Virus record (IMG/VR): IMGVR_UViG_3300031524_000096
Coordinates: 1 to 21,109 of that record
Direction: 5' to 3' (one strand)
DNA: 21,109 nucleotides
DNA from: a virus
Both the position numbers and the translations under genes were made by a program. Each line of letters begins with the position of its first letter. Position 1 is the first letter of the stretch. Positions 7,065-21,109 of the stretch are shown here, piece by piece. The notes under the pieces were generated by a model. That model made no database searches. It was not told the origin of the DNA and worked only from the letters and a program-made list of their open reading frames with translations.

Positions 7065-7123
7065 CCGCCGTTCGGATGCTGCCTACTCATCTGGCATCAC
7101 CAACCAAAATAATCCTATGTTAA
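7061..7123 (+). CDS. Possible 20-aa linking ORF between helicase loader and glycosyltransferase
   Basis: An ATG at 7061 overlaps the helicase-loader stop as ATGA. Its frame encodes about 20 residues (MTAVRMLPTHLASPTKIILC) and ends at a TAA inside the first codons of the next gene (ATGTTAA). This could carry ribosomes across the 52-nt gap to the glycosyltransferase, whose own Shine-Dalgarno is not evident. The peptide has no recognisable features, and such an ORF can easily arise by chance. Confidence 0.25.
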   Translation: MTAVRMLPTHLASPTKIILC

Positions 7124-8124
7124 ACATCGCCTACTGCACGGCTCGCAAAGAGCCCCACATCGAATGGTTCCTGTCCTCCCTCGCCAACGAGGCTGCCGGT
7201 GACTTCTCCCAGCTCAAGATCATCATCGTCGATTATTGGGCCAACCCCTTCGGCGGCACGAAACAGGCGCACGAGGAACGCCGCGCCTACATTTTCGACC
7301 GCGTTGACGATGCCGGAATCCCGCAGGAGGCCGTCAACTGGACCGCGCCCAAGAGCACGCCATGGCAGGGCAAGCAGCGCCAGACGCAGGGAGATTGGTT
7401 CAACGTGGCGAACAGCCGCAACACGGCGCTCTGCTACTGCGAGGACGGGCACGTCGCGTTCGTTGACGATCTAAGCGTTCTCATGCCGGGATGGCTCGGC
7501 TTCGCGGCGCAGGCTGCGATGATCCCGAAGACGATCACGCTCTGCCGCTACCAGAAAGTTCGGGACTTGATTGTGGAAAAGGGCGAAGTCAAATCCTTCA
7601 CCCCGCAGGCCATGGATTCTCGGGCGAAGCACTTCCGCGACCTGACGCGGCCACACCTGAACGCGCCGTCGGACCTGCATTACGGCTACGTGATCGGACC
7701 CGTCCATGCCTACCTTGACGTGAATGGCTACGTCGAGACAGAGACGGCTGGGCTCGGATTCGAGGATGTGCCGACTGGCATCAATCTCGCCAAGAAGGGC
7801 TATGCCTTCCGCTACGATCCGCGCATGTTCACCCTCGAAAGCGAGGATGGGCATGACGACACGAAGTTTCACAAGGCGGATTACGGGGTGTCGCCGAACG
7901 ATAAGAGCCACCTTATACTCCAAAGGTCTAAGACGGGAAACGGCTACGCGGCGAACGACTTTTGGAACGGCCAATCGCTGGCGGAATTGCGCGATCACGT
8001 CTTTGCGAAGGCGTCGAATCCATTCCCTGCCCCGCGACCGAACGTGCGCGAATGGTACTCAGGCATACTGCTTTCTCAATTGCATCAATATCCTGATGGA
8101 TCAAAAGTTTTAAGAGCCCAATGA
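7117..8124 (+). CDS. GT-A-type glycosyltransferase-like protein
   Basis: The 335-aa product begins IAYCTARKEPHIEWFLSSL and continues LKIIIVDYWAN, which resembles the opening strand-helix-strand of a GT-A (GT2-like) nucleotide-sugar transferase. HVAFVDDLSVLMPGWL supplies a DxD-like acidic pair for metal and sugar-nucleotide binding. GLGFEDVPTGINLAKKGYAFRYDP matches the late GT2 motif in which ED is followed by a helix. No membrane segment is obvious, so it should act in the cytoplasm. It lies in the replication operon, away from the other sugar-transfer genes at 13-17 kb. The acceptor could be a glycan, a protein or modified phage DNA; nothing in the sequence decides. The fold is fairly clear, the substrate unknown. 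Confidence 0.7.
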   Translation: MLNIAYCTARKEPHIEWFLSSLANEAAGDFSQLKIIIVDYWANPFGGTKQAHEERRAYIFDRVDDAGIPQEAVNWTAPKSTPWQGKQRQTQGDWFNVANSRNTALCYCEDGHVAFVDDLSVLMPGWLGFAAQAAMIPKTITLCRYQKVRDLIVEKGEVKSFTPQAMDSRAKHFRDLTRPHLNAPSDLHYGYVIGPVHAYLDVNGYVETETAGLGFEDVPTGINLAKKGYAFRYDPRMFTLESEDGHDDTKFHKADYGVSPNDKSHLILQRSKTGNGYAANDFWNGQSLAELRDHVFAKASNPFPAPRPNVREWYSGILLSQLHQYPDGSKVLRAQ

Positions 8125-13014: not shown

Positions 13015-13710
13015 CTAGACCTTCGGGGGCGGATAAACGGTTCCCGCGTCCAGAGCCCGAAGATGATGCGGGTCCATCATGGGAGGGACATTGTTGTCGT
13101 TCCTGTCCGACAGGTCGCTCATGTTCTGGTACTGGACAAAAAGAGTCGGGTCCACGCAGTAGCAATCGCGGTCACGGTGCCACTTTCCGAGCAGAACGTC
13201 TATAGGGCCGTTTCCCGAAATCTCGGGGGCGATCTCGCGGGCGAACCCGCCGCGAATTATGTAGGAGCTGGTGGTGAACAGACGCCCGATTTTTATTACA
13301 TGGGGCGAGCGTCGAGCCAAGGGCATCTCCGCGAAGTGCCGCCCAAGGTAGAGCATGTCGAAGCGCGTCGGAAGCTCCGGGATGTAGGAGGCGAACGCGG
13401 CCTGCGGATCGATGCGCTGGCGGCAACGGAAGTCGGTGAAGGCGAAGTCGGCATCGTCCTCGAAGATGAGCGCCTTTTCCACCTTGTCATGCGCGATCAG
13501 CTCGTAAACGCCGCGATGGGATGCGACACATCCGGCATTTCCGCTGGGCACGCCATCGAGCGCGGGTTTGTCGTGCGCCTCGAATATCGTCACGGCGTCC
13601 ATTGAAATGCCCAGCTTGCCGAACATGGCGACGGCATGCGCAAGGCGGTCTGGACGCCGTTTCAGGTTTATCAGGTAGATGCGATCCACGAATGATTCAA
13701 GCGGAGTCAT
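13015..13710 (-). CDS. Glycosyltransferase family 25 (LPS-type) protein
   Basis: The 231-aa product shows the GT25 signature order. These are IYLINLKRRPDR (11-22), the SGNAGCVASHRGVYE segment (56-70), and LIFEDDADF (81-89) with the DxD-like acidic triad for a nucleotide sugar. LFTTSSYIIRGGFA and a C-terminal DRDCYCVDPTLFVQ also match. GT25 enzymes transfer galactose or related sugars in LPS/lipooligosaccharide and protein glycosylation. The frame is open up to 13767, but the ATG at 13710 sits 1 nt after the upstream methyltransferase stop. It closes the glycan/methyl-transfer group, and the tape-measure gene follows after 43 nt. The likely acceptor is a virion or host-surface glycan (inference). 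Confidence 0.85.
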   Translation of the reverse strand: MTPLESFVDRIYLINLKRRPDRLAHAVAMFGKLGISMDAVTIFEAHDKPALDGVPSGNAGCVASHRGVYELIAHDKVEKALIFEDDADFAFTDFRCRQRIDPQAAFASYIPELPTRFDMLYLGRHFAEMPLARRSPHVIKIGRLFTTSSYIIRGGFAREIAPEISGNGPIDVLLGKWHRDRDCYCVDPTLFVQYQNMSDLSDRNDNNVPPMMDPHHLRALDAGTVYPPPKV

Positions 13711-13711
13711 G

Positions 13712-14254
13712 TTAAAAAGGGAATCCTGGCGGCACGGCAACCAGCAGCATCTTTTCGCGCACCCCATTCAACCTCTCGAAATAGTAGCCGCTGTTGATGT
13801 CCTTAAGCGCGGACAATAGTTCGCTCGCGGTCATTCCGCCAAGATGATCGGTGCCGGCCAAGTCGTAATCATCCACGGCGATAAGATGGTCGTGCCGGTC
13901 AGCCGCCCGCAGTATCTCCAACTCGCGGCGCAATGGGCATTCTGACGGGTCGGTACCCTGCGTGGCGTGGGCGTCGAGCAGGATGGAGAACTTGCCGACG
14001 CCCGCGTCCTTCAGCATCTTCGGCAGGCATACAGAAGACGATCCGGCGTAATAGTGGGCGCGGCCGAACTGTGTTCCCATGTTGTCCCGGGCCCTGGAAA
14101 GCAGAACGGGGTCCAGCTCGCAGGTATAGATTTCCTTGAATCCGGCCATTACAGCGCCGAGCACCCCGCCGCCGACGTGCGTGCCGGTCTCGATGAAAAC
14201 CTCCGACCAGCGCCGCATGTAAACGAACGAATGGCTATGGAGCGACATGCTCAT
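13712..14254 (-). CDS. Class I SAM-dependent methyltransferase-like protein
   Basis: This 180-aa protein has the Rossmann-type start SEVFIETGTHVGGGVLGAVMAGF (17-39), in which ETGT replaces the commoner D/E-x-G-x-G. A strand ending in an acidic residue follows (EIYTCELDP, 41-49). Then come GSSSVCLPKML, ILLDAHAT (91-98), and LIAVDDYD (124-131). The ETGT...LDAH...DD pattern is shared by small phage and bacterial proteins related to TylF/cephalosporin-hydroxylase-like and sugar O-methyltransferases. ATG 14254 overlaps the preceding gene as ATGA; the longer open frame to 14359 is unlikely. It lies between a small membrane protein and GT25, so a sugar is a reasonable substrate. Methyltransferase activity is inferred. 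Confidence 0.7.
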   Translation of the reverse strand: MSMSLHSHSFVYMRRWSEVFIETGTHVGGGVLGAVMAGFKEIYTCELDPVLLSRARDNMGTQFGRAHYYAGSSSVCLPKMLKDAGVGKFSILLDAHATQGTDPSECPLRRELEILRAADRHDHLIAVDDYDLAGTDHLGGMTASELLSALKDINSGYYFERLNGVREKMLLVAVPPGFPF

Positions 14255-14912: not shown

Positions 14913-15313
14913 CGCAAGTCCTCCACCGTCACCGTCCAGCTTGCGTCGAAGCCTTGGACGCTTAAGTGATAGATTCCCCCGTCGCGGATATACTCGGTTC
15001 GCACACCGTCCGCGCTCATGTTGATCGGGTTGAGATTCGCCTCGCCTGCATCGGGATCGGCCCACACGGCAACCTGCATTTCAGGCCCGACCTTGGACGC
15101 AGCGCAGACAACCCGCCAGTGGGCGTGAACGGTGAACTTCGCGGAGTCCTTCGCCTCGTCGTTTCCGCTTATGCGCAGGATTTCGTGATAGGACTTCATT
15201 GCGGTGGGCGGTTCATCGCCCCTACATACGACGCCCAAGAGCGCCGCCAGAAGCGCAACCATCAGGAAGGCGGCTAGGACGCCGAAGATGAATTCAATGA
15301 CGGTGCGCTTCAT
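14909..15313 (-). CDS. Membrane-anchored or secreted hypothetical protein, 134 aa
   Basis: From ATG 15313 the protein begins MKRTVIEFIFGVLAAFLMVA, then LLAALLGVVCRGDEPP. That is a basic start, about 23 hydrophobic residues, and a Cys followed by polar sequence: a signal anchor or an imperfect lipoprotein-like signal. The remaining ~95 residues (YHEILRISGNDEAKDSAKF, VHAHWRVVCAASKVGPEMQV, YHLSVQGFDASWTVTVEDL) look like a small beta-rich domain that would face the periplasm. The start is set by an ATGA overlap with the FkbM methyltransferase. Function is unknown. Its place in the operon suggests envelope action, or possibly a role related to superinfection, but no family is recognised. Confidence 0.6.
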   Translation of the reverse strand: MKRTVIEFIFGVLAAFLMVALLAALLGVVCRGDEPPTAMKSYHEILRISGNDEAKDSAKFTVHAHWRVVCAASKVGPEMQVAVWADPDAGEANLNPINMSADGVRTEYIRDGGIYHLSVQGFDASWTVTVEDLR

Positions 15314-15885
15314 TTGCGGATTGTCCACCCTTCCCACACAAACGGCTCGCGCCATTGCAGCTCATGCGTCTGCGAAAGTGCTGCGGCTATCGAGTCATAC
15401 CGCTTTTGGTAGTCGGGCGCGCAGGTGTGAAATTGGGCGGCGATGTTGGCGAACATCGTCAGGGCCTTGTGATCGATGAGGCTTTCGAGGATCTCGTACT
15501 CCATCCCCTCGCAGTTGAGTTTCAGCAGGTCGAACTTTCCCGCCGCATAGACCTGCCGAAGGTGGTCCACGATTGGCAGGATTATCACCTTCTCCTTGAC
15601 TTCGGAGCCCGCGAACACGCCGCTTGAGTCGCTTTGGACGCCGAACATTTCGGTTCGGAAGTGCGAGCCAAGGCCGCAGTTGAACAGATTGATGCGCGGA
15701 TATTCGCGGCAGGCAATCGACGCCTGCTCGAAGTGCGCCTTCACCGGCTCGAAGGCCAGAACGATGCACTTGTATTTTTCGTGCATGGTCTTGGCGAAGC
15801 CACCGGTGAACGCGCCGACATCGACAACGACCGATTGCGGGCCGAATGGGTAGGCGTGGCGAAGGGATTCAGTGAAGGGTATCAT
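15310..15885 (-). CDS. FkbM family methyltransferase
   Basis: The 191-aa product has SAM motif I VVVDVGAFTGGFAKTM (19-34), the acidic-end strand IVLAFEPVKAHFEQA (41-55), the Asn/Gly strand LFNCGLGS (67-74), and the FkbM hallmark FDLLKLNCEGMEYEIL (118-133). The usual hallmark is DhhKhDhEGxE, with Asp rather than Asn as in LNCEGME here. FkbM enzymes O-methylate hydroxyls on polyketides and, commonly in gene clusters like this one, on sugars of surface glycans. The length is near the short end for the family. It overlaps both neighbours by 4 nt and probably works with the fucosyltransferase and GT25 encoded in the same unit, for example to cap a glycan. The substrate is inferred only from context. 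Confidence 0.88.
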   Translation of the reverse strand: MIPFTESLRHAYPFGPQSVVVDVGAFTGGFAKTMHEKYKCIVLAFEPVKAHFEQASIACREYPRINLFNCGLGSHFRTEMFGVQSDSSGVFAGSEVKEKVIILPIVDHLRQVYAAGKFDLLKLNCEGMEYEILESLIDHKALTMFANIAAQFHTCAPDYQKRYDSIAAALSQTHELQWREPFVWEGWTIRK

Positions 15886-16130: not shown

Positions 16131-16333
16131 GCCTTCACTTCCTTTTTCTTAAAGTGGACGCATCCGAAATTCGGTCCAACCCAAAACGATCCACCCTCAT
16201 CATAGTCGTAAATCATTTGGTCTTGGTTTTCAGGGCGTTCCCTTTCACCGCCCACATATCCACCGCCTTCACAAATCTTTGGGTGAAGGCAGTAGCCTTG
16301 TTCGTCGCGGTATTCACAGTCGGCGCACTTCAT
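16127..16333 (-). CDS. Small cysteine-rich probable zinc-binding protein
   Basis: This 68-aa protein has CADCEYRDEQGYC, then KIC, and near the end MIYDYDEGGSFWVGPNFGCVHF. The last segment (YDEGG-FWVGP-FGC-HF) is one I recognise from many small phage and prophage proteins. Together the four or five cysteines and His probably hold a zinc ion. The biological role of the group is unknown. It sits between the fucosyltransferase and the 82-aa gene with 4-nt overlaps on both sides. Confidence 0.7.
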   Translation of the reverse strand: MKCADCEYRDEQGYCLHPKICEGGGYVGGERERPENQDQMIYDYDEGGSFWVGPNFGCVHFKKKEVKA

Positions 16334-17100
16334 GGCTCTCCTTTGAGTTTAAGATCCCCACATCCCTCAAGCCACGTCAGCCGGGGCCAATTGCCTTCGA
16401 TAAACGCGCAGTCGTTGTCCACCTGCCCGCGCATGTCCTGCGTGATTACCGGAGAGAAAACGCGGTTTGGGTTCAGCAGGCCGGCGACCCAGCTGAAGCT
16501 GCTATTGGCGCGCAAGAGAATCGGTGCCGTCGCTAGCGTCATAAAATCGGGCAGGAACGAAATGGCCTTCTGCAGTATCGTCACATGCCTCGGGTTGTGC
16601 TCTGACACCAAAAGGAACGTCTCGAAATTGGCCTTAAGATGCGAATTGAGCCCATGCGTCTTAATCGCCCGCTCGTAGCTCACCAAGGAAACCAAAGGGT
16701 AACCGGAGTAACCTGTATAATCCCCGCGCCTCATGTGGGCGACCACGCGGTATTGAGGGCCGGAAGCGAATTGCGCCAAAAGGTCGTGCGGGTCCAGCCT
16801 GAACGGAAGCCACTCCCGCGCATCCTCCTTGGTATAAAGGCGTGTCGCCAATTCCGACTGAGCGTAGCCGCGCAATTCCACATTCACCTCGCCGTGCTTC
16901 AGGTCGATTTCAGACCTTTGCGGCAGCTGCGGGCCCGCGTACCGCCCATATCCCGGAAGGTTGAAAACCTTTTCGCCAACCCACTCGTTGCAGGTGAATT
17001 CAGCGCCGACGCTCTTTGCGTAGGCGTAGGACCAGAGGAAGGAACATGTAGAGTTACCTAGCTTACTTCCCGGCGGATTGCAATGGATGTGGCCGCTCAT
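16330..17100 (-). CDS. Glycosyltransferase family 11 (alpha-1,2-fucosyltransferase-like)
   Basis: The 256-aa product carries the GT11 core motif VVAHMRRGDYTG (119-130), the HxRRGDY sequence that binds the GDP part of GDP-fucose. The usual N-terminal GGLGNQLFQYAFARAL element appears here as GSKLGNSTCSFLWSYAYAKS (11-30), a degenerate form. The C-terminal half contains HNPRHVTILQKAISF and ILLRANSSFSWVAGLLNP, matching the GT11 acceptor-side SNSSFSWWAA-like region. Family members add fucose in alpha-1,2 linkage, typically to galactose in surface glycans. The ATG at 17100 overlaps the preceding stop as ATGA. Phage GT11 genes are uncommon compared with GT2 and GT25. Fucose itself is inferred from the family, since no GDP-fucose synthesis genes are in the window. 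Confidence 0.83.
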   Translation of the reverse strand: MSGHIHCNPPGSKLGNSTCSFLWSYAYAKSVGAEFTCNEWVGEKVFNLPGYGRYAGPQLPQRSEIDLKHGEVNVELRGYAQSELATRLYTKEDAREWLPFRLDPHDLLAQFASGPQYRVVAHMRRGDYTGYSGYPLVSLVSYERAIKTHGLNSHLKANFETFLLVSEHNPRHVTILQKAISFLPDFMTLATAPILLRANSSFSWVAGLLNPNRVFSPVITQDMRGQVDNDCAFIEGNWPRLTWLEGCGDLKLKGEP

Positions 17101-17333
17101 TTCCAGAATTGCCACCAGCGTTTGCGCCTGAAGTCCGTTCCGCACCTCTCGGAAGCGAAGGCCATGAATTCGTTGAGCACAACAACCTTGAATTCGAGGC
17201 TATTAAGGCGGGCGACAATATCGGTACGCAAAAAGCCTTCTGCGATGGCGGCGTCTCGCCGATGCTTCTCCAGCGCCTCAATGCGTACACGAAGCTGCTC
17301 GACGGAGGAAGGTTGACGGCCGGGGGTGCTCAT
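17097..17333 (-). CDS. Small coiled-coil protein with aromatic-basic C-terminus
   Basis: The 78-aa product from ATG 17333 has a coiled-coil body (VEQLRVRIEALEKHRRDAAI, then DIVARLNSLEFKVVVLNEFM) and ends in RRKRWWQFWK, a basic and tryptophan-rich tail that could insert in the membrane interface. A longer open frame to 17360 exists, but the ATG at 17333 overlaps the upstream ribbon-helix-helix gene by 4 nt. The ending with W/F before the last Lys is common in small phage proteins of unknown function. It may tether a partner to the inner membrane, a guess from the tail only. Confidence 0.6.
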   Translation of the reverse strand: MSTPGRQPSSVEQLRVRIEALEKHRRDAAIAEGFLRTDIVARLNSLEFKVVVLNEFMAFASERCGTDFRRKRWWQFWK

Positions 17334-18537: not shown

Positions 18538-19686
18538 ATGCCTACAGAAACCGCAGAGCTTGAAATCGTCGCGCCCGAGGCCCGACTCACGAAATACGCC
18601 AACGAGGCGGGACTTGAGCAGTCGGCGACGACTCCGCTTGTCTCAGCCTTCGCGCCCATCTTCAAGGAGGCCCGAACGGTCTTGGGCGCCGCCCGCGGGG
18701 TTGCGGAGACCGTCAAGGACGCGACATGCGTCACGGAGATCCGCAAGGCCCGCGAATGCCGTCTTGCCATCCGCAAGGTTCGCATCGCCGGCGAGAAGGT
18801 CCGCAAGGACCAAAAGGCAACCGTACTCGCCTACGGAAAGGCGGTTGACGGATTCTATAACATCCTGGAGGCCGACCTGGCACCCGTTGAGAAGGAGCTC
18901 CAGGACGCCGAGGATACCGCCGAACGTGCCGAAGTTGCTCGTAAGGACGGGATAGAGGCGGGCCGCAAGGCCGCGCTCGCCCCATTCGTCACGGACGTTG
19001 CTCTCTACGCCGTCCGCGACATGGCTGAGCCCGCGTTCGCCGCTCTCCTGACCGGCGTCTGTGTTGCCAAGGAGCAGGCAGAGGCCGCCGCCGTTAAGGC
19101 CAAAGCGGATCGCATCGCCGCAGAGGAGGCGCGGCTTGCGGAGGAGGCGCGGATCAAGGCAGAGAACGAGCGGCTTCGCTTGGAGGCTGAGGCGCTTGCC
19201 GAGGCCAACCGTCAGGAGCGGCTAAAGGAGCAGGCTGCACGGGAGGTTGCACGCCAGAAGGCTGAGAGTGACGCGAAAGCGGCTGCCGAGGTGGCCCGCA
19301 AGGAGAGGGAGGCGATCGAGGCCAAGGCCAAGGCTGACGCCGAGGCGCAGGAGGCAAGGAACCGTTCCGAGCGTGCCGCCGCCGATATTAAGGCGAAGGC
19401 TGAAAAGGACGCAGCGGACGCAATCGCCGCCAAGGAGAGGGTTGCACGCCAGAAGGCCGAGGCCCAACTCAAGGCCGCCCAGGAGGCCGTAGCGGCCAAG
19501 GTTCGTGCCGAGGCGCTTGCGGCCAAGAAGGCGGCGAACGCCGGCGATGCCGAAAAGATAAACAACTACGCCGCCACTCTGCGGCACACGACGCCCTCGC
19601 TCAAGAACAAGCAGGTTCAGGAGGACATCGAGAAGCAGGCGCTCAACTTCATCGCGTGGCTGGAAAAGAAAGTGGAGGCGCTATGA
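18538..19686 (+). CDS. Long Ala/Lys/Glu-rich coiled-coil protein of the recombination operon
   Basis: The 382-aa protein has three zones. Residues 1-80 are mixed, ending in a short conserved-looking TEIRKARECRLAIRKVRIAG. A helical domain then runs EKVRKDQKATVLAYGKAVDG to about residue 140 (APVEKELQDAEDTAERAEV). From about 175 to 340 it is a continuous Ala/Glu/Lys/Arg coiled coil (AEEARLAEEARIKAENERLR). A small folded C-terminus closes it (INNYAATLRHTT, then KNKQVQEDIEKQALNFIAWL). The middle zone resembles the DUF1351-type phage proteins encoded near recombination genes, but this is uncertain. The erf gene follows with an ATGA overlap, and its GGAGG ribosome site lies in this gene's last codons. 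It may be an accessory or scaffold for recombination. Confidence 0.6.
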   Translation: MPTETAELEIVAPEARLTKYANEAGLEQSATTPLVSAFAPIFKEARTVLGAARGVAETVKDATCVTEIRKARECRLAIRKVRIAGEKVRKDQKATVLAYGKAVDGFYNILEADLAPVEKELQDAEDTAERAEVARKDGIEAGRKAALAPFVTDVALYAVRDMAEPAFAALLTGVCVAKEQAEAAAVKAKADRIAAEEARLAEEARIKAENERLRLEAEALAEANRQERLKEQAAREVARQKAESDAKAAAEVARKEREAIEAKAKADAEAQEARNRSERAAADIKAKAEKDAADAIAAKERVARQKAEAQLKAAQEAVAAKVRAEALAAKKAANAGDAEKINNYAATLRHTTPSLKNKQVQEDIEKQALNFIAWLEKKVEAL

Positions 19687-20456
19687 GCAACAGCGATTCA
19701 AACCTTTTCGCGGAGTCGGAGATACCGACGCGGGAATTGGCTGTCGTTCAGCCGACCGCCCTTTCACTGATCGACAAGCTAATAAGCGCCGGACCCCTCA
19801 ACGCTGATTCGGTGGGCGTCATGGAGCGGCTAGTGGCCCTCGACCGCGAGGTCAGGAAGGACAACGCCGAGCGCGACTTTGCCGTGGCACTTGCGGCCCT
19901 TCAGCAGGAGACCGGCAAGGTGAAGGCGACCAAGGCCGTGCCGAACCGCGACCAGACTATCCGCTACTACTTCGCCCCGTTTGAGGACATCATGGACCAG
20001 GTGCAGCCGTTGCTGAACAAGCACTCCTTCTCGGTGTCGTTCGATATGGACTTCTCGGAAGGCCGCGTGACAGAGACCTGCATCCTGACGCATTCCAGCG
20101 GCCACCAGAGGCGCAATAAGTTCATCGTGCGTATCGGTGGAGGGCCGCCAGGAGCCACCGAGACGCAGGCAGACGGGGCTGCCGCCACCTACGCCAAGCG
20201 CGGCGCCCTCTGTAATGCGCTCAACATCGTTACGGGCGTGGACACGGACGGCGTTGCGACGGATGCCCGCGCCGAGGGCGCCCCCATAACCGAGGACCAG
20301 GCCCTCTGGCTGCGCGACATGGTTAAGCAGACGAAAAGCGATGAGGCCGCGTTTCTCAAGTTCGCGAACGCAGGACCCGGAACCTATGAGACCATCGGAA
20401 GCGCGCGCTTCCCTGAACTGTCGCGCGCACTCAACAAGAAACTCGCCGGACTATGA
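19683..20456 (+). CDS. erf: ERF family single-strand annealing protein
   Basis: ERF-type proteins, first known from phage P22, bind single-stranded DNA as rings and anneal complementary strands during phage recombination. The 257-aa product shows the family's core: NAERDFAVALAALQQE, VPNRDQTIRYYFAPFEDIMD, QVQPLLNKHSFSVSFDMDFS and the end motif ADGAAATYAKRGALCNALNI followed by VTGVDTDG. The C-terminal ~60 residues (ITEDQALWLRDMVKQTKSDE on) form a small helical tail, common in phage ERF proteins. The ATG at 19683 has GGAGG 6 nt upstream and overlaps the coiled-coil gene by 4 nt. An exonuclease gene begins two genes downstream, so the pair should work as an exonuclease-annealase recombinase. Confidence 0.92.
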   Translation: MSNSDSNLFAESEIPTRELAVVQPTALSLIDKLISAGPLNADSVGVMERLVALDREVRKDNAERDFAVALAALQQETGKVKATKAVPNRDQTIRYYFAPFEDIMDQVQPLLNKHSFSVSFDMDFSEGRVTETCILTHSSGHQRRNKFIVRIGGGPPGATETQADGAAATYAKRGALCNALNIVTGVDTDGVATDARAEGAPITEDQALWLRDMVKQTKSDEAAFLKFANAGPGTYETIGSARFPELSRALNKKLAGL

Positions 20457-21064
20457 AAAATACAACACCCATAACCCATCTGTCGGACATCAACGCCTGT
20501 TTGTCGGCTATCGAATGGGTTAAAGCGTCCAATTCGCGTAGCCTCGAATCCGCATGGCAGAAGTGCGAGCGCGGTGACTGGATGCTCTGGTACGCTGGCA
20601 AGAAGGCTGGCCCTGTTGGCGACGAGAAGCGCAAGAAGCTGGTCCTAGCGGCCTGTGCGTGCGCCCGGTTGGGGCTTCCGACCTTTGAGAAGCGTTACCC
20701 CGGCAACGACGTTATGCGAGTCTGTCTCGACACGGCAGAGAAGTGGACGCGAAATAAAGCAACGCTGGAGGCGTTGCAAGTTTCGCGCAGAAATTGCTAC
20801 GCCGCCGCCGACGCCGCCGCCTACGACGCCTACGCCGCCGCCTACGACGCCTGCGCCGCCGCCTGCGCCGCCGCCTACGACGCCGCCTACGACGCCGCCG
20901 CCGCCGCCTACGACGCCGCCGCCTGCGCCGCCTGCGCCGCCGCCTACGCCGCCGCCGCCGCCGCCTGCGCCGCCGCCTACGCCGCCGCCGCCGCCACTAA
21001 AAAGAAGGTCTTAAAGGAGTGCGCGGATATCGTGCGCAAGTGGTATCCCGAATTGCCGCAATGA
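20453..21064 (+). CDS. Protein with Ala/Tyr/Asp/Cys repeat (putative-immunity-protein-like)
   Basis: The 203-aa protein has an ordered N-terminal half. It includes SLESAWQKCERGDWMLWYAG, the EKRKKLVLAACACARLGLP segment, and CLDTAEKWTRNKATLEALQV. Residues 116-181 are then built from just four residue types (Ala, Tyr, Asp, Cys), followed by KKKVLKECADIVRKWYPELP. The plan of a W-rich start, an LVLAACACAR helix, AAxAAAxAA repeats and a CADIVRKxYP end is one I know from phage and bacterial proteins annotated as putative immunity proteins; their role is unproven. The Ala-rich part would form a long helix with Tyr and Cys on recurring faces. It lies between erf and the exonuclease with 4-nt overlaps at both ends. 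Confidence 0.65.
   Translation: MKNTTPITHLSDINACLSAIEWVKASNSRSLESAWQKCERGDWMLWYAGKKAGPVGDEKRKKLVLAACACARLGLPTFEKRYPGNDVMRVCLDTAEKWTRNKATLEALQVSRRNCYAAADAAAYDAYAAAYDACAAACAAAYDAAYDAAAAAYDAAACAACAAAYAAAAAACAAAYAAAAATKKKVLKECADIVRKWYPELPQ
20798..20995 (+). repeat. 66-codon low-complexity repeat using only GCC, TAC, GAC and TGC
   Basis: These 198 bases read in frame as 66 codons, every one of them GCC, TAC, GAC or TGC. All alanines are GCC, while elsewhere in the gene alanine uses GCG, GCT and GCA too. Units such as GCCGCCTACGACGCC and GCCGCCTGCGCC recur imperfectly. The composition suggests growth by slippage or unequal exchange in steps of three bases, which keeps the frame and changes only the length of the helix. 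Confidence 0.9.
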
Positions 21065-21109
21065 AAACACTCCACATGGCCCAAGGATCAGTGGAATGGC
21101 ACGCGGCCC
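21061..21109 (+). CDS. YqaJ/lambda-exonuclease-like recombinase, first 16 codons only
   Basis: The window ends 49 bases into this gene. The readable start, MKTLHMAQGSVEWHAA, matches the opening of YqaJ/lambda-exo type nucleases (hxQGSxEWxxxR), the 5'-3' exonucleases that make the single strands used by annealing proteins. The ATG overlaps the preceding stop as ATGA. Its position after an ERF annealase supports the call. The catalytic core lies beyond the window, so activity cannot be judged. Confidence 0.75.
   Translation, partial: MKTLHMAQGSVEWHAA

Follow-up and report, generated by a model that had tools for sequence, protein, structure and literature searches.

The window analysed here is virus record IMGVR_UViG_3300031524_000096 in its full length of 21,109 bases; the record may represent part of a genome. 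On its plus strand, an open frame at 20453-21064 encodes a protein of 203 amino acids, in which an Imm5-like head is followed by a homocodon array and a C-terminal helix (Table 1); the gene shares an ATGA overlap with its neighbour on each side. The array occupies codons 115-181 (201 bases) and consists of 46 GCC, 9 TAC, 6 TGC and 6 GAC codons, so that the run made only of these four codons, pointed out in a first-pass annotation of the sequence, is confirmed and is one codon longer than the 66 codons (198 bases) given there. Tandem Repeats Finder calls the array independently, in three rows with scores of 173-260 and periods of 12, 21 and 33. All 46 Ala codons in the scored part of the array (65 codons) are GCC, compared to 3 of 14 elsewhere in the gene (binomial p = 9 × 10−31), which indicates that the array is not a product of chance at the codon level; in five other plus-strand genes of the window, GCC accounts for 93 of 217 Ala codons.

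The same codon lock is found in relatives of the gene. Homologues were collected mostly via the pattern RGDWMLW or CERGDWM, so that conservation of this motif partly reflects how the sequences were selected. IMG/VR scans found 193, 145 and 144 relatives in overlapping sets, of which the best 80 of each scan were kept, and genome contigs gave 24 relatives, all titled as metagenome-assembled genomes; the search among named phages gave one weak match only, to the same record for three queries, and a single query against plasmids gave none. Among arrays of at least 30 codons, with duplicates removed, the main Ala codon accounts for 4846 of the 5187 Ala codons in 125 arrays (93.4%), compared to 594 of 1928 (30.8%) in the flanks of the same genes, and purity reaches at least 95% in 89 of the 125 arrays. 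Because the array finder favours Ala, it inflates Ala content, with no such effect on codon choice. The main Ala codon in 84 arrays is GCC (48), GCT (32), GCA (2) or GCG (2), and 4960 of the 5128 codons in these arrays are at most one base away from the array's own main Ala or Tyr codon. The third bases of the two codons agree (TAC 40 and TAT 13 in GCC arrays, TAC 3 and TAT 58 in GCT arrays; Fisher p = 6.5 × 10−16), and paralogues within one phage can use different codons (GCT, GCC and GCC in record L002). Array lengths extend from the 30-codon limit up to 161 codons (record L052), with a median of 58. In the homologous region of 14 Imm5-like genes from cellular genomes (14 of 31 fetched loci, L291-L321, the 17 missed by the motif being left out), the main Ala codon accounts for 167 of 357 Ala codons (46.8%), none of the 14 regions is at least 95% pure, and region length, judged by eye, is nearly constant. 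The first-pass annotation had proposed in-frame slippage and a protein of variable length, and the use of one Ala codon per array, lengths of up to 161 amino acids and differences between near-identical records (see below) bear this out. Repeat length, which it had suggested comparing among relatives, varies widely, from the 30-codon limit to 161 codons, and the combination of synonymous diversity and near-fixed length, which it had named as the mark of ordinary selection, is seen in the 14 cellular-genome relatives and not in most of the phage genes.

Similar arrays occur on unrelated heads. We scanned DNA for stretches encoding AADAAYAAAYAA with pyrimidine third bases, a search by which the Ala/Asp/Tyr composition of the matches is partly selected, and obtained 64 matching stretches, some of which share a contig or come from near-identical phages. 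By blastp with the arrays masked, 41 of the 64 stretches have Imm5-like heads, 6 belong to a family A, 6 to a family B, and the rest are single or too short; recognised heads lie in the frame of the array in 53 of the 64. Families A and B show no blastp link to the Imm5-like heads or to each other, and three family A and two family B members that were tested gave no Pfam match above cut-off. For family B, 444 relatives were found by pattern and tblastn; among the best 80 of these, 63 have arrays of at least 30 amino acids and 14 run off the contig. The main Ala codon accounts for 2626 of 2802 Ala codons in these 63 arrays, compared to 28.4% in their flanks, and the composition is 69.4% Ala, 10.5% Tyr, 9.6% Asp and 3.0% Ser. 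Named viruses also carry such genes: a GCT/GAT/TAT array is joined to a family A head in Caulobacter phage Cr30 (on Caulobacter crescentus CB15), a GCG array with much Ser, Arg, Glu and Trp is joined to a family B head in the Xanthomonas phages, the XapPhi phages (L469-L472) have a family B gene of 328 amino acids with a GCG-rich Ser/Trp/Gln/Arg/Glu array, and Methanosarcina virus MetMV has an Imm5-like head with a GCG-rich array. Family B heads were found in none of 50 records with Imm5-like genes, in a search made without a positive control. Two family B members stand apart: in L402, whose contig name has a form that points to a sequenced genome and not to a metagenome, the array consists of Ala with Trp, Arg and Gly, and in L412 the frame runs on beyond a normal array into Pro/Thr-rich sequence of the kind that a GCC/TAC array gives when its frame is shifted, which looks like a frameshift in the array, either real or due to assembly error.

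A single base change turns GCC or GCT into a codon for Asp, Ser, Val, Thr, Gly or Pro, and Tyr requires two changes. In the 125 arrays, Tyr accounts for 11.5% of residues, Asp for 8.6%, Ser for 3.0%, Val for 1.9%, Thr for 1.9%, Gly for 0.7% and Pro for 0.2%, and 124 of the 125 contain Tyr or Trp. In 12 GCG arrays, which include two closely related pairs, Trp makes up 6.2% and Tyr 0.6% of residues, all of this Tyr coming from one array, compared to 11-12% Tyr and about 0.2% Trp in 183 GCC or GCT arrays. The excess of two-step Tyr over one-step Val, Thr, Gly and Pro, the presence of Trp in GCG arrays and the nearly identical composition of the arrays in an unrelated family all argue for selection at the protein level. 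One-step variants of the main Ala codon, counted as types per array in the 84 arrays, comprise 53 synonymous and 168 non-synonymous variants (opportunity 3:6), and those of the main Tyr codon comprise 4 synonymous and 148 non-synonymous variants (opportunity 1:6). The placement of non-Ala residues is also non-random in 127 Imm5-like arrays: they avoid adjacency (YY pairs, 5 seen and 107 expected; DY pairs, 8 seen and 79 expected) and favour spacings of 3 and 4, and the pooled power spectrum peaks at 3.4-3.5 residues, at 2.6 times the level of shuffled arrays. Periodicity is individually significant in 36 of 84 arrays, and seven family A arrays show a stripe of the same 3.4-3.5 period.

Comparison of near-identical genomes shows that arrays can change while their surroundings do not. 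The alignment of records L018 and L019, which come from two metagenomes, spans 9,185 columns, and each of the 68 columns that differ lies inside one of the two arrays; the arrays differ in residues and not just in length, CAT codons of L018 being absent from L019. Both records carry two tandem copies of the gene (L018:2237-3433 and L019:2220-3464), with head and array identical within each record, a pattern that may reflect either real concerted change or an assembly effect. A single base differs between L157 and L160 in 6.4 kb, and it is an Ala-to-Val change inside the array; L047 and L048 differ by two bases, both in the array and within the last eight bases of the L047 contig. The Xanthomonas phages KPhi1 and BsXeu269p/3 are 98.98% identical over 3.3 kb, and their arrays start with (GCG)5 and (GCG)6, respectively. 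Of the paralogues, 9 of 15 pairs in record L169 are 86-96% identical in head DNA and have arrays that are unlike each other; these arrays are poorer in Ala. The six Imm5-like paralogues of this record lie within one 7.7-kb stretch (L169:2439-7633), which looks like a diversifying multigene locus.

The head links the window protein to a known superfamily. The whole protein matches PF21805 (Imm5_like) with 35.2 bits (cut-off 25) and the head alone (residues 1-112) with 27.9 bits, and hhalign comparison of 12 phage heads with six cellular Imm5-like proteins gives 97.4% and E = 1 × 10−11 over 65 columns outside the array. Judged by these sequence comparisons, the head is a divergent Imm5-like domain and a member of the PF21805 superfamily. 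We aligned 71 of 112 homologues, leaving out duplicates and truncated, very long or divergent proteins; 42 of the 71 aligned phage-type proteins match PF21805, and 9 match PF14423 (Imm5) at E = 0.01, the window protein not being listed for the latter at E = 1. These matches bear out the statement of the first-pass annotation that relatives are annotated as putative immunity proteins without proof. The N-terminal RGDWMLW segment is invariant in the 71 proteins, a set gathered mostly by that motif, and is not found in the six aligned cellular Imm5-like proteins. In the C-terminal half of the cellular proteins, G98, H105 and H109 are invariant in the alignment with the six members; the window array, with its Ala, Tyr, Asp and Cys codons only, has no counterpart of this Gly and the two His. 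The window protein has no NCBIfam match, and PADLOC models gave none for the window and a weak methyltransferase match (E = 0.004) for 1 of the 71 proteins. Further domain shuffling is seen in L327, L354, L353 and L375, where other N-terminal parts precede the Imm5-like core or stand directly before the array; the one in L353 matches DUF7666.

An AlphaFold2 model of the window protein, built from the alignment of 71 proteins, has a mean predicted local distance difference test score (pLDDT) of 90.2 and a predicted template modelling score of 0.79, and consists of seven short helices followed by two long ones (residues 105-148 and 153-197), the first starting inside the head and the break between them lying in the array. 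The position of the break and the order of elements suggest that the two long helices pack as an antiparallel hairpin. The model of a relative with a short array (L008) also follows this plan, its arms being shorter (mean pLDDT 86.8, tip below 50), and comparison of the two models suggests that the hairpin would lengthen symmetrically with codon number. Sequence searches for solved relatives gave none that was convincing and no match to 7jtu, and Foldseek against the PDB gave no match at E = 0.001 or better for either model. Chain B of 7jtu, which we take to be SsdAI from its length and from the accessible portion of PMC7901873, is VIA rank 1 for the L008 model (Z = 6.1, 120 aligned residues, root-mean-square deviation 4.6; next row 4.7) and Foldseek rank 2 (E = 2.5); in the searches with the window model it comes first in Foldseek (E = 0.82) and third in VIA (Z = 5.1). 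The VIA rows for both models are mostly unrelated helical proteins, and the 7jtu_B scores sit within the range of such proteins, so that the likeness to SsdAI is weak. Foldseek searches against viral models gave one match at E = 4.2 × 10−5, to an uncharacterised protein from an uncultured Caudovirales phage, as well as one at E = 0.27 to a protein labelled 'Imm-5-like domain'.

Table 1. Features of the array gene and its neighbours in the window.
Feature	Coordinates	Strand	Basis or remark
ERF-type single-strand annealing protein, 4-bp overlap with array gene	19686..20456	+	PF04404, phrog_155
Whole gene: Imm5-like head, Ala/Tyr/Asp/Cys array and C-terminal helix	20453..21064	+	203 aa
Head, residues 1-114: phage-type segment with RGDWMLW, then Imm5-like core	20453..20794	+	PF21805 match, alignment
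Hairpin helix 1 (predicted), residues 105-148	20765..20896	+	AlphaFold, tip pLDDT 67-69
Homocodon array, 67 codons GCC/TAC/TGC/GAC	20795..20995	+	Codon count, Tandem Repeats Finder
Hairpin helix 2 (predicted), residues 153-197	20909..21043	+	AlphaFold
C-terminal helix TKKKVLKECADIVRKWYPELPQ, conserved	20996..21061	+	CADIVR..YP in consensus, 71 aligned proteins
Likely YqaJ exonuclease, first 16 codons, 4-bp overlap, cut by record end	21061..21109	+	Likeness to L014

The upstream neighbour matches the ERF annealase profiles PF04404 (E = 5.8 × 10−18) and phrog_155 (E = 1.1 × 10−25). Downstream, only 16 codons of an open reading frame (ORF) lie inside the window (MKTLHMAQGSVEWHAA); they resemble the start of the gene at the position of the YqaJ match in L014, the record of the nearest relative, and by this likeness the ORF is likely to encode an exonuclease. 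The first-pass annotation had placed the array gene between annealase and exonuclease genes and coupled it to recombination; the annealase is borne out, the exonuclease is only likely, and the coupling stands locally in the window and is not supported as a general rule. Among 50 relatives' records, ERF is present in 8 (in 7 of these within about 3 kb of the array gene) and YqaJ in 3, and the genes near Imm5-like array genes are a mixture of replication, recombination and methylation genes with no fixed partner (profile scan of 209 of 267 crude nearby ORFs, 25 commonest families per scan), and on these results a fixed recombination operon was rejected. Directly upstream of the ERF gene, 18538-19686 (+) encodes an Ala/Lys/Glu-rich protein of 382 amino acids that is probably a coiled-coil and has no Pfam or PHROG match. 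Elsewhere in the window, the ORFs at 7117-8124 (+), 13015-13767 (-), 15310-15885 (-) and 16330-17145 (-), the first of which has no PHROG match, we take from their motifs to be glycosyltransferase-like or sugar-related methyltransferase-like.

The reading that we favour, at somewhat less than an even chance, is that the homocodon array expands in frame under protein-level selection for an Ala helix with spaced aromatic and acidic residues, which serves as a variable binding arm. Under this reading, the array would grow and shrink in whole codons via slippage or misaligned recombination, and the reading frame would be kept because the changes are by whole codons. Changes at codon positions 1 and 2 would introduce Asp, Tyr, Ser, Val, Thr, Asn, His or Cys; further expansion would spread the new codons and remove synonymous variants, and protein-level selection would retain an Ala helix with spaced aromatic and acidic residues. 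The array is predicted to form two antiparallel helices, a hairpin that the conserved C-terminal helix closes, and added codons would, given a hairpin, lengthen both arms and leave the head undisturbed; cellular relatives have an ordinary Ala-rich C-terminal hairpin where the phage protein has the homocodon array. By analogy with immunity and inhibitor proteins, the hairpin might be the varied binding arm through which the head contacts a changing partner, a candidate being a host or competitor enzyme that acts on nucleic acid. The growth mechanism taken alone is more secure than the arm model as a whole, and an inhibitor of deaminases is a less secure reading. We consider it possible, albeit unlikely, that a portable, self-expanding helical arm evolved repeatedly on unrelated heads (Imm5-like, family A and family B), as a GCC, GCT or GCG array that changes mostly at codon positions 1 and 2 and so spaces Ala, a single kind of aromatic residue (Tyr, or Trp in GCG arrays) and acidic residues along a hairpin, and that some lineages diversify it faster than the rest of the genome, as an arms-race surface and with no reverse transcriptase.

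Several observations weigh against this reading. In the window array itself, neither the longest repeated codon word (p = 0.12) nor helical periodicity (p = 0.26) is significant, and family B arrays peak at 3.0 and 4.0 without the 3.4-3.5 period, which refutes a universal heptad. The ladder of Tyr, Asp and Cys on the helix suggested in the first-pass annotation accordingly survives in part: a stripe of period 3.4-3.5 is present in the pooled Imm5-like arrays and in seven family A arrays, is missing from family B and is not significant in the window array, and Cys drops out, as it makes up just 0.5% of residues in the 125 arrays and the cysteines are not conserved. The tip of the hairpin in the window model is a low-confidence region (pLDDT 67-69), and the models are of monomers only. 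The main Ala codon tracks genome GC content (medians 0.56 and 0.40), and the diversity of residues may already have been present in the seed of the array instead of arising by later mutation. The records L018 and L019 were assembled from metagenomes, and identical tandem copies assemble badly from short reads. Of 9 near-identical comparisons that cover at least 35 array codons, 6 show no difference in the array stretch they share, and three of these six carry 3-8 single-nucleotide polymorphisms elsewhere, which indicates that array turnover is uneven (the pair L013/L014 was excluded because its array is not covered, and the comparisons of L157 with L158, L159 and L160 are not independent). Among isolates, the arrays of KPhi1 and BsXeu269p/3 differ by 2 synonymous and 2 non-synonymous substitutions besides the one-codon gap, those of KPhi1 and phiXaf18 by 1 synonymous and 0 non-synonymous, and those of XapPhi3 and XapPhi5 by 4 synonymous and 0 non-synonymous with no change in length; array length is the same in all four XapPhi isolates, and for two pairs of them the differences are four synonymous changes in the array and one change in the head. 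Differences dominated by synonymous changes mean that the array protein is mostly conserved in these isolates, and they speak for purifying selection there and not for fast diversification. These synonymous changes and the constant array protein lower the probability of both the arm model and the repeated evolution of an arms-race surface.

Under a quite unlikely alternative, the protein is an ordinary immunity or inhibitor protein whose head neutralises a nucleic-acid-modifying toxin, such as a DYW-like deaminase in the manner of SsdAI, and the array is a length-tolerant filler. The matches to PF21805 and, for 9 of the 71 proteins, PF14423 are what this would predict, as are the top ranks of 7jtu_B (VIA for the L008 model, Foldseek for the window model). 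According to PMC7901873, SsdAI is made up of helices only and inserts a protrusion into the active site of the deaminase, and SsdA, a single-strand DNA deaminase, belongs to a DYW-like group; Imm5 is listed with DYW deaminases in PMC3482391, from which a role in immunity to deaminases gains some weight. Against it, a Z of 6.1 is common among helical proteins and 7jtu_B is only third in VIA for the window model, the Foldseek and sequence searches lack significant matches as given above, and the DYW_deaminase profile was found in none of 50 phage records at E = 0.1, in a search that did not cover other toxin families and on records that may be fragments. It is slightly less likely still that the arrays arise by neutral or selfish slippage, Ala-rich hairpins tolerating codon-run expansion and the arrays needing only to remain soluble and helical. 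The homocodon purity, the dependence of codon choice on GC and the variable length are what replication slippage is expected to produce, relatives do not share a conserved array sequence, and synonymous and non-synonymous changes stand side by side in KPhi1 compared to BsXeu269p/3. Against slippage by itself stand Tyr, two mutations away yet the commonest non-Ala residue, with Trp in its place in GCG arrays, the shortage of synonymous relative to non-synonymous one-step variants (53 vs. 168 for Ala and 4 vs. 148 for Tyr) and a composition common to unrelated heads.

The remaining explanations have far lower probabilities. It is very improbable that the arrays act at the DNA level, as recombination or signal sequences that happen to be translated: the position of the window gene between annealase and likely exonuclease genes fits such a role, whereas the scarcity of ERF and YqaJ in relatives' records, the heads in the array frame in 53 of 64 stretches (the rest being single or too short) and third-base dialects that alter the DNA yet keep Ala and an aromatic residue do not. 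A short-read assembly artefact is similarly improbable. Of 160 distinct genes, 30 run off the contig end, and in 21 of these the break comes more than 75 residues past RGDWM, within or close to the array; the L047/L048 differences next to a contig end are also as expected from misassembly. However, Ala-rich arrays are present in the deposited genomes of Cr30, KPhi1, phiXaf18, BsXeu269p/3 and XapPhi, all with a host named in the record, and in that of MetMV, and array residues rather than copy number alone differ between L018 and L019. The chance that a diversity-generating retroelement produced the TAC, GAC and TGC codons from AAC by adenine mutagenesis is close to negligible: the non-Ala codons of the window fit AAC mutants, but array length varies, Ile, Leu, Phe and Gly are rare, and reverse transcriptase (PF00078) was found in none of 50 relatives' records, the window record not being among them, in a search whose control was detected in 3 of 14 genomes. 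On this last result, diversification by a retroelement was rejected.

If the favoured reading of a variable, in-frame expanding arm is true, phages would have a general in-frame way to vary proteins, apart from retroelements and phase-variable frameshifts, and array genes would often lie near the replication/recombination module. Related genes that differ mainly in the length and sequence of the arm, natural switches of dialect from Tyr to Trp and isolates such as Cr30 are testable objects. Two warnings follow: many uncharacterised proteins stand behind the label 'putative immunity protein', and metagenome contigs often end inside these array genes.

Several known systems resemble these arrays in part. 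Type I antifreeze protein Maxi (PDB 4KE2) consists of Ala-rich helices and appears in the fold lists for the window model (VIA Z = 4.2; Foldseek E = 7.2); unlike Maxi, the arrays have no 11-residue signal (0.48 of shuffles at period 11) and contain only 1.9% Thr. Diversity-generating retroelements diversify a phage protein in place, whereas the arrays change length and none of 50 relatives' records has a reverse transcriptase. The PF21805 proteins of cells have a homologous core in common with the window protein, to which the phage proteins add the N-terminal RGDWMLW segment; the phage array stands where the cellular proteins have a hairpin of mixed codons in which Gly and His are conserved. 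SsdAI (PF14423, Imm5; PDB 7JTU), the best VIA row for the L008 model, shares an exclusively helical structure (PMC7901873), with weak fold scores, and the accessible portion of that paper mentions no comparable array. Eukaryotic homocodon and poly-Ala expansions are codon-pure runs that change length, as here, according to the accessible portions of PMC8113271 and PMC11285758; the arrays described here differ from them in occurring in phages, in unrelated families and with spaced aromatic and acidic residues. Within the search terms used, and going by titles and the beginnings of abstracts, no publication describing such arrays in phages came up. Growth of homocodon runs is itself a known kind of process, and its convergent occurrence here, in phage proteins that are unrelated and with codons that share their third base, is a new form of it.

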